A stretch of DNA of 64,000 nucleotides. Origin: Coriobacteriia bacterium. GTDB lineage: Bacteria > Actinomycetota > Coriobacteriia > Coriobacteriales > Eggerthellaceae. Location: contig JAUNOE010000002.1 in NCBI GenBank assembly GCA_030537255.1, forward strand, positions 1 to 64,000, read 5' to 3'. The notes under the pieces were generated by a model. The model ran no database searches. It worked only from the letters and a program-made list of their open reading frames with translations, and was not told the origin of the DNA. The position numbers were made by a program, and so were the translations under genes. Position 1 is the first letter of the stretch. Every line of letters begins with the position of its first letter. Below, one piece after another: positions 47,811-53,545 of the stretch.

Positions 47811-48100
47811 AAAAAGCCCGCCCTTGGTCGTACAACGATTCCAAGGACGGGCTCGAAAGCTCGCGGTGCCACCTTGATTCACCAAACCCCTTGATGGGGT
47901 GGTGCCCTTTGTGAAGCGCCATCACGCTTCTGGTCCTTAACGTAGACCTCACGCCATGAATACTTGGCTGGCTGAAATGCTAGCCGTTCCTCACGCCCTC
48001 GGCGGCCCATTTGATGGCTTGCTTTCTGTCCGGATCTCAGCACCCCGGACTCTCTGTGAGTGCACAGCCACCGTTACTTCCGCTTCATCGGTTTCGGTGA
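47811..48100 (-). promoter_or_regulatory. T-box riboswitch of the trp operon (tRNA-Trp)
   Basis: On the minus strand the invariant T-box element AAGGTGGCACCGCGA lies at 47875-47861. The terminator follows: a 12-bp GC-rich stem (47852-47841 / 47827-47816, one G-T mismatch) and TTTTT at 47815-47811. Upstream an AGTA motif and a paired stem flank an internal loop whose 3' side contains TGG (48009-48007), the expected Trp specifier codon. Uncharged tRNA-Trp should favour the antiterminator and switch on trpE-GD-C-FB-A. Confidence 0.9.
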
Positions 48101-48107
48101 TGGTCTG

Positions 48108-48137
48108 AATATAGCGCGCTCGTTGCGGCGTGGTCAA
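48108..48137 (-). promoter_or_regulatory. promoter of the trp operon
   Basis: Minus strand TTGACC (48137-48132), 18-base spacer, TATATT (48113-48108), giving a start near 48101, directly before the T-box stem I. Confidence 0.8.
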
Positions 48138-48399
48138 TTTCGAGAGTGTTACGTTTCGTCGAAAGGTTTTGGCCAGATTGGCCGGATCGTTCCCTTGATG
48201 CTGGGAGCGGCTCTTCGCTTGAGTGTGGTTTGCGGCTCTGCGTCAAGCATAGTCCGCTTTCGTTGAGGTGCGTTGAGTGCGGCTTGCCTTTGGCGGGGAG
48301 CCGTTCTGGCTCGTTTTGTCTTCAGTTTTGTCCTCGGTTTTGCCCCCCAGTCGGATTTTCCATGGCTCTGCTCCCAGGCTGGGCCTTGTCAAACTGGGC

Positions 48400-48643
48400 C
48401 CAAAACCAGGTATCGCGCTCTGTTTGGCAATTTTGGTCGCAAATGTACGATTGCGGCCATTTTGCTTCGGAATCATTGCTGGGCGACGAGCCAGCCGATC
48501 TCCCAACTTGATGCGCTCAACCTTCTGACCTGGTGTTTTGTCGGGAGTGCTTTTGCTCTTCCAAAAGACGGCATGTCTTGAGTCTGAACTGGTCGTACAT
48601 TTGGCCTTCTTTTTGCCATGAACGCCTTGTTTGCTGGTTTTGC
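48400..48643. mobile_element. MITE-like element, copy B
   Basis: 244 bp with the same co-linear 52-bp inverted ends as copy A (outer -CAAAACCAG, middle TGGCAA, inner AAATGTACGA) and the internal core CTTCTGACCTGG-GTTTTGT at 48520-48542. The right outer end has one mismatch. It sits between the trp promoter and the DUF4352 gene. No coding capacity. Confidence 0.7.
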
Positions 48644-48708
48644 CGTCTTTGAAAGCCAGGTTTGCGGCCTGTCGCCCGTGTCCATGATCCTTGGTGATGG
48701 CTCTGCTC

Positions 48709-48870
48709 GGTTTTGCGGATGTTCGCAGCCCGGGACTCTTCCCTGCCTTCAGCGTGGGGGTGGTGCTCTTTCGGGGTTTTGTGGGCGTCCTCAGCCTGGC
48801 ATTTTTCCTTGCGTATGTCGGCTTGCTTTCCTGCTATTTCGGTTGTCAAGGGTTTCCGTGGGTCATCGAG
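48709..48870. repeat. 66-bp degenerate tandem repeat
   Basis: 48709-48774 and 48775-48840 both begin GGTTTTG-GG--GT-C-CAGCC-GG and end TGCT-TTTC; a third, weaker copy begins at 48841. It fills part of the gene-free stretch between copy B and the gene at 49072. The frames open through here have no supported start. Confidence 0.55.
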
Positions 48871-48885
48871 GCTGGTCTTCCTTTG

Positions 48886-48902
48886 ATTAGCTCTGAGCTA
48901 AT
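48886..48902. promoter_or_regulatory. 17-bp palindrome upstream of the DUF4352 gene
   Basis: ATTAGCTC-T-GAGCTAAT is a perfect inverted repeat, 170 bases before ATG 49072. An operator is plausible; no regulator can be assigned. Confidence 0.4.
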
Positions 48903-49071
48903 GAATTCAATCGAGGTGATTTTCTATCATGGCTTTACCTTGTTGCGCGACTTCCAGTTAAAGAGGTTACGCGCGCGACTACGGCCGCCTTCAGCCTCAG
49001 CGGGCGAGCGACGGTCTGGTTATTTCGATTCGGTTGGGGATGGGAGTCCCCAAGTGAGAATAGGGACGCAA

Positions 49072-50091
49072 ATGGATAATCAACCCAATCAGCAGCTGCA
49101 GGGTGGCAACCAACAACAGGGCGGCCAGCTGCGGGACGGCGGTCAGCAACAGGATGGCGGCTGGCCTCAGGCTCAGCCCAACGGCACTGGCCAGCCCCAG
49201 CCCAATGGCCAGCCTTATCAGCAGCCTGGACAGGGTCAGCCTCAGAACCAGTTTCAGTATCAGCAGAATCCCCAGGGTCAGTACCAGCAGCCCTATGGTG
49301 CACCGCAGCAGGGCCAGGCTTACATGAACAACGGCCAGCAGCCTTATGGCCAGCCTAGCCAGCAGGTCTATTACACTCAGCCAGGGCAAGATCTCCAGCA
49401 AAAGAAGCGTTCGATTTCGGCAATTGTCGGACTGATCATCGCAATTTCTGCCCTGCTTACTTGCTTGCTTCCCATCGTGAACAACGGTTCGTTCTTCTTG
49501 GCGCTCCTCTCACTTCTTATGGGCATCATCGGCTTTGTTGCGACTGGCAAGAAAAAGATGAAAAAGGGCCGAAGTGTGGCTATTGCAACAATCGTCGTTT
49601 CCCTTATTGCTTGTGGCGGGGTGTTGTCTTCTCAATCGGCGTATGATGATGCGCTGGATGGCCCCTCAGCCTCTTCGGTTAGCCAGGCCGGATCAAGCGA
49701 CCCTTCAAAAACCGATTCCGACGAAACCAGTGATGCAAACAAGCTCTCCATCGGCGATACTCTCACCCTTGAAGATGGCTTGAAGGTGACCGTGAATGAG
49801 ACGAAGAAAGTGAGCCAATACGGTTCTTCCTATGTAGGAATTCGGGTCACCTACAAGAACACTGGAGACGCAACTGCTTCCTACAATTTCTACGACTGGA
49901 AGGGCGAAGATAAAGATGGTGCCCTGGAAGAACCCGAGTATACGTCCTTCGACAATGAGCTCAGTTCTGGCGATTTGAAGCCGGGTGGCAAGAAAACGGC
50001 TTGGGTCTATCTTCCCAAGGCTTCGAAGAAGGCATGCTATTTCAGTTCTACATTTGCTGACGAACCTGTTGGCTCTTGGGTCTTGAAGTAA
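49072..50091 (+). CDS. membrane protein with Gln/Pro/Gly-rich head and C-terminal DUF4352 domain
   Basis: 339 residues from ATG 49072. Residues 1-105 are very rich in Gln, Gly, Pro, Asn and Tyr and surely disordered. Two to three hydrophobic helices follow (AIVGLIIAISALLTCLLPIV; FFLALLSLLMGIIGFVAT; VAIATIVVSLIACGGVLSS), then a Ser/Asp linker, then an Ig-like DUF4352 domain (about 225-339; SIGDTLTLEDGLKVTVNET, VGIRVTYKNTGD, GGKKTAWVYL) outside the cell. Many Gram-positives have several such proteins; their function is not established. The open frame reaches 48691 but the head is unlike coding sequence and lies over repeats. Confidence 0.82.
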   Translation: MDNQPNQQLQGGNQQQGGQLRDGGQQQDGGWPQAQPNGTGQPQPNGQPYQQPGQGQPQNQFQYQQNPQGQYQQPYGAPQQGQAYMNNGQQPYGQPSQQVYYTQPGQDLQQKKRSISAIVGLIIAISALLTCLLPIVNNGSFFLALLSLLMGIIGFVATGKKKMKKGRSVAIATIVVSLIACGGVLSSQSAYDDALDGPSASSVSQAGSSDPSKTDSDETSDANKLSIGDTLTLEDGLKVTVNETKKVSQYGSSYVGIRVTYKNTGDATASYNFYDWKGEDKDGALEEPEYTSFDNELSSGDLKPGGKKTAWVYLPKASKKACYFSSTFADEPVGSWVLK

Positions 50092-50186
50092 GAGATTCCG
50101 CTTATTCTGCATTTTGTTGATTGGGGTTACTGATTGTCTTTTTGGCATGACTGACAGCCAGTTGGAAGAACTGCTTGTCTGGGGAA

Positions 50187-50468
50187 ATGAAAGAGCGGCT
50201 TGAACAGTTTGACGAGAAAGGCCGAACGGAAGAACTGACGTTCAAGCTGGAGAAAGAGGGAAACCAGTGAAAGCCCGAGGTCTTACCGAGGAACAGCAGG
50301 ACACGATATGTGGCGGCTTCCGATTATTCAAAAGAGTTCCGCAAGAGCGGACACACCCAAAAACATGGCGCACTGGGGCTGCTGGAATTCGAGCTTGAAG
50401 ACGGCGGCTTCGCCGCAATTGGCCGTCGGGTAGCCGACGAATTGTCGCTTCGACAAATCCGTCAGTAA
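50187..50468 (+). pseudogene. possible broken small gene
   Basis: One frame reads MKERLEQFDEKGRTEELTFK to TGA at 50268, then continues open to TAA 50466-50468 with a protein-like stretch (RYVAASDYSKEFRKSG...GALGLLEFELEDGGFAAIGRR). The two parts share the frame and are split by a single TGA. I recognise no family. It could be a decayed gene or chance. The rest of the 50092-50544 gap shows nothing else. Confidence 0.3.
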
Positions 50469-50544
50469 CCTCAGGTCAGCACGTCAAAACGCGTCCCGCT
50501 CTCTCCCCGCAACTAATAAAGACGCACGATTTGGAAGGAAACCA

Positions 50545-50964
50545 ATGGAAGAACCTTTGACCGAAGAGCTCCTAGACGAGCTTCTGTCTGCGTCTTCTCC
50601 TGCTGACTTTTCGGACGGTCGCAACTTTCCCTTCTCGTCGGCGAGCGAGTATCTGGCGCACCTGTTGAGGGAAAAGGACTTGAAACGTTCCGAGGTGGTG
50701 GCGGCGTCAGGCCTGAACTCGACCTTCGGCTATCAAATATTCACGGGAGCCCGCAACGCCTCGCGCGACAAATTGCTGCAACTCGCCTTTGCCATGAGCC
50801 TCAAGCAGCACGAAACCGACCGTCTGCTCATGCTGGCAGGACACAGTCCCCTGTACGTAAAGCTGCGTCGGGACGCCATCATTCTGTTCTGCATGCAGAA
50901 GGGCTTCACCTTCGCCCAAACGGAAGAAACGCTGTTCCGTTTCGGCGAAAAAACCATTGCCTAA
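50545..50964 (+). CDS. helix-turn-helix protein paired with a Ser/Thr kinase
   Basis: 139 residues. An acidic head (1-25) precedes an XRE-like helical domain (about 35-95) with KDLKRSEVVAASGL and YQIFTGARNASRDKLLQLAF, followed by AFAMSLKQHETDRLLMLAGHSPLY and a C-terminal helical region ending FRFGEKTIA. GGAAGGAAA precedes ATG 50545. Proteins of this size with the KLLQLAF...SPLYVKLRRDAIILF pattern are familiar to me as the gene before a protein kinase in gut Firmicutes and Actinobacteria, and that is the arrangement here (48-base gap). DNA binding is likely from the fold; target unknown. It may be the substrate or regulator of the kinase. Confidence 0.82.
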   Translation: MEEPLTEELLDELLSASSPADFSDGRNFPFSSASEYLAHLLREKDLKRSEVVAASGLNSTFGYQIFTGARNASRDKLLQLAFAMSLKQHETDRLLMLAGHSPLYVKLRRDAIILFCMQKGFTFAQTEETLFRFGEKTIA

Positions 50965-51012
50965 CTGGTGCGACCGAAGCATCGCACCCTCCGGTCGCGC
51001 TATCCTTGCAGG

Positions 51013-52356
51013 ATGGAAAAGGAGCTTCAGGAATACCTCGATTCTCTTGCCCAGCCCCTCGAAGGGGATGGGCTTTCTTCATACACGGAGTATCGCATCG
51101 AGCGGCTGCTTGGCTGCTCTGACCTCGAAGAAACCCAGCTGGTTTACCGCTCGGTTGGAGCGTCCCAGCCAAAGGGGCTGGTCGGTAACCGGTCTGAGCT
51201 GAAAGAAGAAGGTCCCTTTGTCCGCAAGTTCATCGATGCCTCGGCGTCAGGTGCCCAGGTGTACGAATTGCTGTATCGAGCGCAGGAGAAAGGGGCCTGC
51301 CTGCATCACGTCCCGCATGTTATCGAGTGCCATCACGAAGGTGAGTCCTTGGTGGTGGTCACTGAGTATGTGGAAGGCGCTTCGCTCGAATCTGCGATTT
51401 GCGCATATGGGCCTTCCGCCCGTTTAGCGCGCTCGGCTTTTCTTTCTCTCTGTGACGCAGTTATTGAATTGCACGAATGTCTCGATGTACCTGTTATTCA
51501 TCGCGACCTCAAGCCGTCAAACGTCATGCTGTCAGACGGTACGGCTTATCTGATCGATTTCGGCATCTCGCGCGCATACAAGGAAGGTGCGCAGAGGGAT
51601 ACCTCGCATTTCGGAACGCGGAGCTATGCGCCACCCGAGCAGTTTGGCTTTGGCCAGACCGACGTACGCAGTGACGTGTATGCCTTGGGTATGGTGCTGT
51701 ACTTTTGCCTCACGGGGCGGGAGCCTTGTCCCTCCTTGGCTGAGGAAGGCCGTCCTGCTCAGATTTCTGCGGAGTTATGGGACGTCATCCTGATGGCGAC
51801 TCGGTTTGATCCCGTGTCGCGTTTTGCAGACGTGCGCGCTCTGAAAACAGCAGCTGCCTGGGCTTTTGACAAGGGGCGTGAACCCTCACAAGACGCAGGG
51901 GCATATAAAAAAGGGGCATATAGAGAAGCGGCGCATAAGGAGGAGACGTACAAGAAAGAGGCGTACAAGGACGAAGGTGCTTCCGACAAAAGTCAAGACA
52001 CTATGGCTTCCTCGTCGCCTCTTCGGAGACTCCCGCGGTTCGTGGGCGTGCTTTGGAACCTCTTGTTGCTATTCGTGGTTGCGTTTTTTGCTGCAGACAC
52101 GATTGGCGACGTGGTTCATCCGTCCGAAGGAGGAATCCTTGAGGTTTTTGTACCGCGGATTCTCATGGATTTGGGCTTGATGCTCATTCCGGCGGCATTG
52201 CTTTCGTACGGCTTGGCCGACCTGAGGGGCTGTCCTCCCATCCTTCCACTTTCGGAGCGCAGCTGGAAATCGCGCTTCGGTCTCATGGCGAAAGCAGTGT
52301 GCGTCGTAGCCGTGGTCACTGTTCTGGTCCTGGCAATCCTGCTTTCTGTCGTCTAG
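51013..52356 (+). CDS. membrane-anchored Ser/Thr protein kinase
   Basis: 447 residues from ATG 51013 (frame open to 50968). Kinase domain about 20-285: a degenerate nucleotide loop (LLGCSDLEET, no GxGxxG), probable catalytic Lys 72 in FVRKFI, HRDLKPSN (HRD at 163-165), DFG (182-184), GTRSYAPPEQ activation segment and SDVYALGMVLY. Then five near-exact pentapeptides (GAYKK, GAYRE, AAHKE, ETYKK, EAYKD; residues 296-320), a Ser-rich stretch, and three hydrophobic helices to the C-terminus. No PASTA or other extracellular domain. The kinase would face the cytoplasm. Function of the HTH/kinase pair is not known to me; upp follows but has its own leader. Confidence 0.9.
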   Translation: MEKELQEYLDSLAQPLEGDGLSSYTEYRIERLLGCSDLEETQLVYRSVGASQPKGLVGNRSELKEEGPFVRKFIDASASGAQVYELLYRAQEKGACLHHVPHVIECHHEGESLVVVTEYVEGASLESAICAYGPSARLARSAFLSLCDAVIELHECLDVPVIHRDLKPSNVMLSDGTAYLIDFGISRAYKEGAQRDTSHFGTRSYAPPEQFGFGQTDVRSDVYALGMVLYFCLTGREPCPSLAEEGRPAQISAELWDVILMATRFDPVSRFADVRALKTAAAWAFDKGREPSQDAGAYKKGAYREAAHKEETYKKEAYKDEGASDKSQDTMASSSPLRRLPRFVGVLWNLLLLFVVAFFAADTIGDVVHPSEGGILEVFVPRILMDLGLMLIPAALLSYGLADLRGCPPILPLSERSWKSRFGLMAKAVCVVAVVTVLVLAILLSVV

Positions 52357-52427
52357 CTGCTTTTGCGGCTGTGGTTCTTTCATAGGCAGGGGCGGCTGCA
52401 TGGTAGAGTTTGCTCTGAAATTGAAGT

Positions 52428-52523
52428 ACCACGTTCGGGATGCCAACGGTGCGGGGGAGCGCCTTGGCAGGATGGGTATCTGGCGTTTTCGCAAGTCGTC
52501 TAGAGCCAGTCCCAGAACGTGGT
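52428..52523 (+). promoter_or_regulatory. inverted repeat in the upp leader
   Basis: ACCACGTTCGGGA (52428-52440) can pair with TCCCAGAACGTGGT (52510-52523) with one bulge, closing a 69-base loop about 50 bases before upp. Possibly a regulatory leader; nothing matches a known riboswitch. Confidence 0.35.
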
Positions 52524-52574
52524 GTTTACGATGTCGCTGTGCGTTTCGGCGACAAGCAAGGTAAGGAGTTCCTT

Positions 52575-53210
52575 ATGTACGAAGGCCGCGTCACCCTGCT
52601 GGATCATCCTATGGTCCAGCACAAGCTTTCCATCCTGCGTCGTTCCGACACGCCCACTAAACTCTTCCGCGAAATCGTGGGCGAGTTGGCCATGCTCGAG
52701 GCCTACGAGGCCACGCGTGACCTACCCATGGAAGACGTGGAGATCGACACGCCCATGGCTCATATGACCGCTCGTCAGATTTCGGGCAAGAAGCTGGTCA
52801 TCGTTCCCATCCTGCGTGCTGGACTGGGCATGGTCGATGGCGTGCTGGAAGTGGTTCCCGCCGCTCGCGTTGGTCATCTGGGCATGGAGCGCGACGAAGT
52901 GACCCATGTGCCCCGTTCCTATTACGCAAAGCTTCCCGCCAACAGCGACCAGCGTGAGATCCTGCTGGTTGACCCCATGCTTGCAACGGGGGGCTCGGCT
53001 ATTATGGCGGTCGAGTTCCTTCGCAAGGCTGGCGTGAAGAAGATCAAGTTTTTGAACATTGTCGCTTCGCCTGAAGGTATTAAGGCATTGCTGGATTATG
53101 ACCCTGACCTGCACATCTACACGTGCGCCATTGACGAACGCCTGAGCGAAGACGCCTACATCATTCCTGGTCTAGGTGACGCGGGTGACCGCATTTTTGG
53201 TACCAAGTAG
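52575..53210 (+). CDS. upp: uracil phosphoribosyltransferase
   Basis: 211 residues, normal length. Uracil + PRPP to UMP. Motifs: [48 protein letters not shown], the PRPP loop [13 protein letters not shown] and [17 protein letters not shown] at the C-terminus. ATG 52575 has AAGGAG at 7-12 bases upstream; the longer frame from 52440 overlaps the leader inverted repeat and is rejected. Confidence 0.97.
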
Positions 53211-53225
53211 TTTTTGGCACCCGGC

Positions 53226-53349
53226 TTCTGGCGGCTGTCGCTCATCGGTCTGTGTCTTCAGGCGGTTGGCGACTATCGGTCTGTGCTTTCTGGTGGTTGT
53301 CGCCCTTCGGTTTATGCTTTCTGGCGGCTGCCGACCATCGGTCTGCGTT
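53226..53349. repeat. 31-bp tandem repeat, four copies
   Basis: TTCTGGCGG, TTCAGGCGG, TTCTGGTGG and TTCTGGCGG recur at exactly 31-bp intervals (53226, 53257, 53288, 53319), each followed by TG-CG-C--TCGGT-T-TG. It begins 15 bases after upp and ends shortly before a terminator. Non-coding. Confidence 0.8.
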
Positions 53350-53369
53350 GGGTCTTCCCCATCAAGCAA

Positions 53370-53407
53370 AACGGCGACCCCTTCCGTGCGAGGAGGGGGT
53401 CGCCGTT
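53370..53407 (+). terminator. terminator after upp
   Basis: 12-bp perfect stem AACGGCGACCCC (53370-53381) / GGGGTCGCCGTT (53396-53407), extended inside by partial pairing; CGTTGTCTT follows. Confidence 0.78.
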
Positions 53408-53545
53408 CGTTGTCTTGCCTGGGTCTAGAAAGGGCATAGATAGGAGTGGGGACGCCGTCTAAAACCCAAAAGGACGCCGGTAAATCGCGAAAGTCCAAAA
53501 TGAAATCGGACCGAAGGTGGGAACGCCAATAGAATCGCTGAGCGC

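Follow-up and report, generated by a model that had tools for sequence, protein, structure and literature searches.

A surface protein, an XRE-type regulator and a Hanks-type kinase encoded as one conserved unit with a putative operator of its own in Eggerthellaceae

In Mycobacterium tuberculosis, the genes for the membrane-bound Hanks-type kinase PknL and the small DNA-binding protein Rv2175c are adjacent. PknL phosphorylates Rv2175c on T9, which lies in a flexible N-terminus ahead of the DNA-binding domain, and a T9D mimic can no longer bind DNA (PMC4601284). The same organism contains PknH, a Hanks-type kinase controlling EmbR, which is an activator of cell-envelope genes (PMC4601284). The locus described here, located in a window of 64,000 nucleotides (the whole stretch of DNA analysed) from a member of the Eggerthellaceae, shares with PknL-Rv2175c the pairing of a membrane-bound Hanks kinase with a small DNA-binding protein, and with PknH-EmbR the link between such a kinase and a putative activator of envelope genes. 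However, Rv2175c is a winged helix-turn-helix (HTH) protein, whereas the HTH protein of the window is modelled as a lambda-type XRE fold; the N-terminal extension of Rv2175c has been described as confined to M. tuberculosis, whereas T6 of the window-type protein is invariant across phyla; and no surface protein has been described as part of the PknL-Rv2175c system, whereas the window set has a defined operator and its operon also encodes a surface protein. The window pair lacks both the SARP/FHA architecture of EmbR and the extracellular sensor of PknH. The best reading is that the window set would work like PknL-Rv2175c but is not a member of that type.

With respect to the single components, the closest folds to the window HTH protein are C.AhdI and C.Esp1396I (with weak Foldseek E-values). 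Such C proteins of restriction-modification systems are small XRE auto-activators and, unlike the window HTH protein, they have no kinase partner. The best sequence relatives of the kinase domain are the PASTA kinases PknB, PrkC and StkP, but these possess a canonical glycine loop and extracellular PASTA repeats, both of which are missing in the window kinase. Literature searches, in which subscription journals were thinly covered, yielded only incidental mentions of DUF5067/DUF4352 together with a kinase, of Coriobacteriia kinases and of Listeria locus tags, and we found no description of the set as part of a known pathway. That a Hanks kinase can act on a transcription factor is known in principle; the dedicated three-gene architecture with its operator is a new variation on it.

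Table 1. Position of the genes and sequence features of the unit within the window
Feature	Coordinates	Strand	Remarks
Operator	48887..48901	.	15-bp palindrome TTAGCTNNNAGCTAA, written TTAGCTCTGAGCTAA; family consensus TTAGCTGSCAGCTAATG
-10 box TATCAT	48925..48930	+	distance to operator start 38 nt, in most relatives 37; -35 consensus absent
Surface-protein gene	49072..50091	+	339 aa; Gln/Pro-rich N-terminus, hydrophobic membrane segment, extracytoplasmic DUF4352 domain
XRE-type HTH protein gene	50545..50964	+	139 aa
Thr6 codon	50560..50562	+	candidate phosphosite; invariant in 130/130 relatives
Recognition helix STFGYQIFT	50719..50745	+	residues 59-67; residue 64 tracks operator sequence
Membrane-anchored Hanks-type Ser/Thr kinase gene	51013..52356	+	447 aa
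Kinase domain	51091..51873	+	residues 27-287; K72, D165, N170, D182 invariant; no GxGxxG
Three C-terminal membrane helices	52036..52350	+	residues 342-368, 379-401, 415-446; short loops

The initial annotation described a small HTH gene ahead of a membrane-anchored kinase gene, and both open reading frames were confirmed (Table 1). It further considered the pairing recurrent, which holds true: in 138 genomes of the window's family a kinase gene follows directly downstream, on the same strand, in 107 out of 129 HTH matches. The HTH gene, whose possible separation from the kinase in most genomes had been named as an objection, is therefore linked, and the pairing is far beyond chance. HTH and kinase were detected in 103 and 102 of these genomes, respectively, and roughly three out of four of the Eggerthellaceae genomes searched carry the set, among them Adlercreutzia, Gordonibacter, Enteroscipio and Slackia; with Collinsella and Enorma it reaches into the neighbouring family, and strong matches within the phylum end at the order level. 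There are also solitary copies, i.e. some HTH genes without a detected kinase and some kinase genes without an HTH. Among individual loci, the HTH gene is tandemly duplicated within one cassette at L060 and L070, and Gordonibacter pamelaeae 7-10-1-b (L085) retains HTH and operator with a weak or broken kinase match, possibly indicating kinase decay. Open frames of 360-435 aa with a distant copy of the HTH region were noted in G149, G254, G359, G369, G429, G456 and G513. An apparent natural HTH-kinase fusion (684 aa, L061) contains a run of N and was discarded as an assembly-gap artefact.

As to its extent, the two-gene cassette initially delimited at 50545-52356 proved too narrow, as the unit comprises positions 48887-52356 and includes a surface-protein gene and a palindrome. 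The surface-protein gene is the sole other conserved neighbour of the pair; further neighbouring genes are not conserved, and in the window they are housekeeping genes. A count with regular expressions places it immediately 5' of the pair at no fewer than 66 of the 108 distinct loci. The 76 upstream proteins contain DUF5067 (33), DUF4352 (23, including that of the window) or Ltp (7) domains, a further type of C-terminal domain being DUF3426/FxLYD-like, and the C-terminal domain is often preceded by a DUF4190-type membrane anchor. Since 17 of the 25 DUF5067 domains scoring above the cut-off in 60 genomes adjoin the cassette, the association does not simply reflect a domain that is common anyway. 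In the window, the gap between surface-protein and HTH genes (50092-50544) measures 453 nt and is wider than in most relatives; no terminator was predicted on the + strand between the two genes, and no RNA elements were found with Rfam in the region 48000-53500. The gap sequence resembles the remnants of a broken gene and shows no unusual folding.

In an unbiased word count, AGCTAATG was recovered from 96 of 121 regions upstream of HTH genes, compared with about 4 expected. This word is half of the palindrome TTAGCTGSCAGCTAATG located 5' of the operon's first gene, which is found upstream of the operon in about 80 out of 108 distinct loci, usually as the sole copy in the genome; the window site is the only exact TTAGCTNNNAGCTAA in its genome (an 82% complete MAG). 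Genome searches detected the palindrome in 91 of 138 genomes, the reversed control pattern being rare, and more specifically in 84 of the 103 genomes with HTH compared with 7 of the 35 without (Fisher p=9e-11). For nearly two thirds of the tabulated sites (47/75), an HTH gene follows within 2.5 kb downstream.

Operator and recognition helix vary together. Loci encoding glutamine at recognition residue 64 show the TTAGCT palindrome in 81 out of 91 cases and an alternative palindrome in none (0/91), whereas paralogues with D64 (helix VVYDIF instead of GYQIF) never have the TTAGCT palindrome (0/14) and instead show TTCAGTTGNCAACTGAA, close upstream at 7 of 14 loci and nearby at others, the D-type operator being TCAGTTGNCAACTGA; these counts are inflated by the relatedness of the loci. 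At the two M64 loci the operator is TTAACTNNNAGTTAA. The expected operator is missing in the searched stretch for 10 of the 91 Q-type and half of the D-type HTH genes. Both HTH paralogues are present in the genome of the window, together with exactly one operator per type, which in each case sits at the matching cassette; the second, divergent HTH/kinase cassette (L056, contig C123) has the operator TCAGTTGCCAACTGA and encodes a kinase of about 657 aa. Because palindrome and recognition helix change together between paralogues, the window HTH protein almost certainly binds the palindrome, and three helix types matching three operators would be hard to explain otherwise.

The motif TAnnnT is found at +37 from the operator in 63 of 83 aligned operators and in 0-3 at other offsets, and several paralogue operators show the same -10 spacing. 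A strict operator/-10 pattern misses the window site, where the -10 box lies one base further (38 versus 37). None of the 83 aligned operators contains the -35 consensus TTGACA, with only 2-4 of 6 positions matching, and no sigma-70 promoter was predicted between 48700 and 52700. As the -10 box is located at a fixed +37, the palindrome would be centred about 42 bp before the expected transcription start, which is the position of a class II activator, from which lambda CI acts at PRM and which C proteins use as well. A fixed -10 box without a normal -35 box is activator geometry, and we thus read it as activation rather than repression. In 12 of the 83 operators a phased -10 box occurs at the same offset on the opposite strand. 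At L051, L116 and other loci two palindromes, or phased -10 boxes on both sides, suggest divergent promoters.

Additional palindromes with a phased -10 box precede detached genes of the surface type, for example those encoding a DUF4190-DUF5067 protein at L195 and, at L197, a zinc-ribbon protein, and on the L040 contig an Ltp gene begins 26 bp after a palindrome. TTAGCTNNNAGCTAA is also found near a sortase-like gene in several genera (L196, L200, L209, L211, L225; two tandem copies in L211); these sites have no phased -10 box, are doubtful members of the regulon and perhaps belong to another regulator. The same palindrome occurs in a near-identical integrative element beside an excisionase-like gene (L203, L210, L212), again without a phased -10 box and in some cases in genomes without the HTH gene.

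The HTH protein has no match in Pfam or NCBIfam. Its AlphaFold model (70 sequences) contains a five-helix lambda/XRE domain at residues 33-97 (pLDDT about 95), followed by two more conserved helices and preceded by an N-terminal segment of low confidence. The domain superposes on C.AhdI, DdrO and 434 Cro with TM scores by target of 0.74-0.79 and Foldseek E-values of only 0.01-0.1. According to this model, with the HTH at helices 2-3, the protein is an XRE/lambda-repressor-like regulator. Residue 6, in the N-terminal segment outside the DNA-binding fold, is threonine in all 130 relatives that possess this position, and never Ser, Asp or Asn; its invariance could be structural, as it marks the start of a helix. 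A supposed loss of Thr6 in kinase-less HTH proteins was discarded, as cases were too few and one of them retains a TxxLM motif.

The kinase matches PF00069 (6.7e-26), and its structural model matches protein kinases. Translation more likely starts at ATG 51013 than at GTG 50968, as the N-terminus is conserved in 48 relatives. The absence of a canonical glycine loop noted in the initial annotation was borne out, the motif 'LKxSxxETTExV' being conserved in place of GxGxxG. The glycine-rich loop varies among active kinases, so its absence is no bar to membership in the Hanks family; the assignment rests on catalytic residues and fold, with the missing GxGxxG as an exception. Across the 48 relatives K72, HRD 163-165, N170, D182 and T202 show no or almost no variation, and with the catalytic Lys, HRD, Asn and DFG Asp fully conserved, the kinase is predicted to be active and not a degenerate pseudokinase. 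The three C-terminal hydrophobic helices are joined by short loops only and therefore leave no extracellular domain, in agreement with the annotated lack of an extracellular sensor. With the PASTA-kinase profile NF033483 the kinase scores 104 bits, compared with a cut-off of 450.

The set is not restricted to Actinomycetota. In Listeria, an HTH protein with 41% identity, a kinase whose domain is 35% identical and a DUF5067 protein are encoded side by side, the HTH gene being divergent from the kinase and DUF5067 genes; the TTAGCT palindrome is absent from the Listeria intergenic region. This locus is a true relative of the window cassette, and it would correspond to lmo0617-lmo0618-lmo0619, the kinase being identified as lmo0618 by its neighbours and its length of 380 aa. 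lmo0618 was deleted in a study of ten loci in which nine of the ten deletions led to 5-10 fold lower replication in Caco-2 cells (PMC3091722). Listeria matches labelled 'phage' and 'plasmid' look chromosomal from their annotated neighbours and were set aside. On clostridial contigs the HTH gene likewise adjoins the kinase gene, in several cases together with lipoproteins or zinc-ribbon membrane proteins, and in a search that used only the kinase as query, this HTH gene adjoins the kinase gene on all six best contigs. The linkage thus persists through changes in gene order (co-directional, divergent) and across phyla.

Taken together, the locus is probably an auto-activating operon of a Hanks kinase and an XRE activator that controls surface proteins, in which the kinase would phosphorylate the HTH protein. 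A dimer of the HTH protein would bind TTAGCTNNNAGCTAA about 42 bp before the transcription start, substitute for the -35 box and, in class II geometry, activate transcription of the operon. A single transcript would encode first the extracytoplasmic Ig-like/lipoprotein surface protein, then the HTH activator and last the kinase. The kinase, which is anchored in the membrane by its three helices and has no sensor domain itself, would phosphorylate the HTH protein, most likely on the invariant Thr6, thereby setting expression of the operon and, in some genomes, of a few other surface-protein genes. The surface protein would be the output and perhaps a sensor, too. The three-gene unit, the HTH-operator pairing, the promoter geometry and the intact kinase are well supported by the sequences, while activation rather than repression, phosphorylation of the HTH protein by the kinase, its site and the signal are what we infer.

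A position at about -42 would suit a repressor as well. The HTH protein might repress its own operon until phosphorylation by the kinase sets it free and the surface protein is induced; operator and -35 region overlap, a place where RNA polymerase would be blocked, and most small XRE proteins are repressors. We nevertheless consider this unlikely, because the -35 region hardly resembles TTGACA although the -10 box and its spacing are tightly kept, as in activator-dependent promoters, and because the second phased -10 box on the other side of some operators fits symmetric activation. It is also conceivable, if rather doubtful, that the HTH protein runs the operon alone and that the substrates of the kinase lie elsewhere, for example in envelope synthesis, the genes being merely co-expressed. 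The solitary copies of both genes are consistent with this, as is the fact that Hanks kinases usually have many substrates (PMC4601284), but a linkage that survives changes in order and holds across phyla, and the invariance of Thr6, argue against it.

The initial annotation proposed a signalling or phage-response switch in which the kinase modifies the HTH protein. The latter layout is strengthened by the linkage in two phyla, the HTH-tied operator and the invariant threonine outside the fold, whereas the phage-response half finds no support as the main role. The kinase does score with many PADLOC PD-T4-6 kinase models (2e-34), Ltp lipoproteins, whose phage relatives act in superinfection exclusion (PMC3952083), are found in 7 of 76 cassettes, and six clostridial-type HTH-kinase pairs are located on contigs classed as viral. 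However, the match is confined to the generic kinase domain, a search with the HTH protein itself recovered no relative in 2.9 million viral contigs, the cassette has housekeeping neighbours in the window, and its conserved third gene encodes a surface protein, mostly of the DUF5067/DUF4352 type. A toxin-antitoxin pair like HipBA is not indicated either, as the HipA family is absent from the Pfam and NCBIfam matches of the kinase. A phage-response or abortive-infection switch or a kinase toxin-antitoxin pair is very improbable.

Returning to the auto-activating operon under control of its kinase, we tentatively suggest that the set may represent an equivalent of two-component systems that is based on Ser/Thr phosphorylation, in which a dedicated couple has an operator to itself, insulated paralogues, a self-activating promoter and interchangeable surface proteins. 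The couple is spread over Coriobacteriales and Bacillota, and its paralogues would be kept apart by co-evolving HTH and operator. The carriers are Actinomycetota common in the gut, and how these bacteria regulate their surface proteins has been little studied; for the Listeria kinase gene, known from a deletion phenotype, the set provides a concrete hypothesis. Hanks kinases have mostly been investigated as pleiotropic regulators acting on many substrates; for the window kinase there is a single candidate regulator, a single operator and a single candidate phosphosite, and specific Ser/Thr signalling would therefore be directly testable here.
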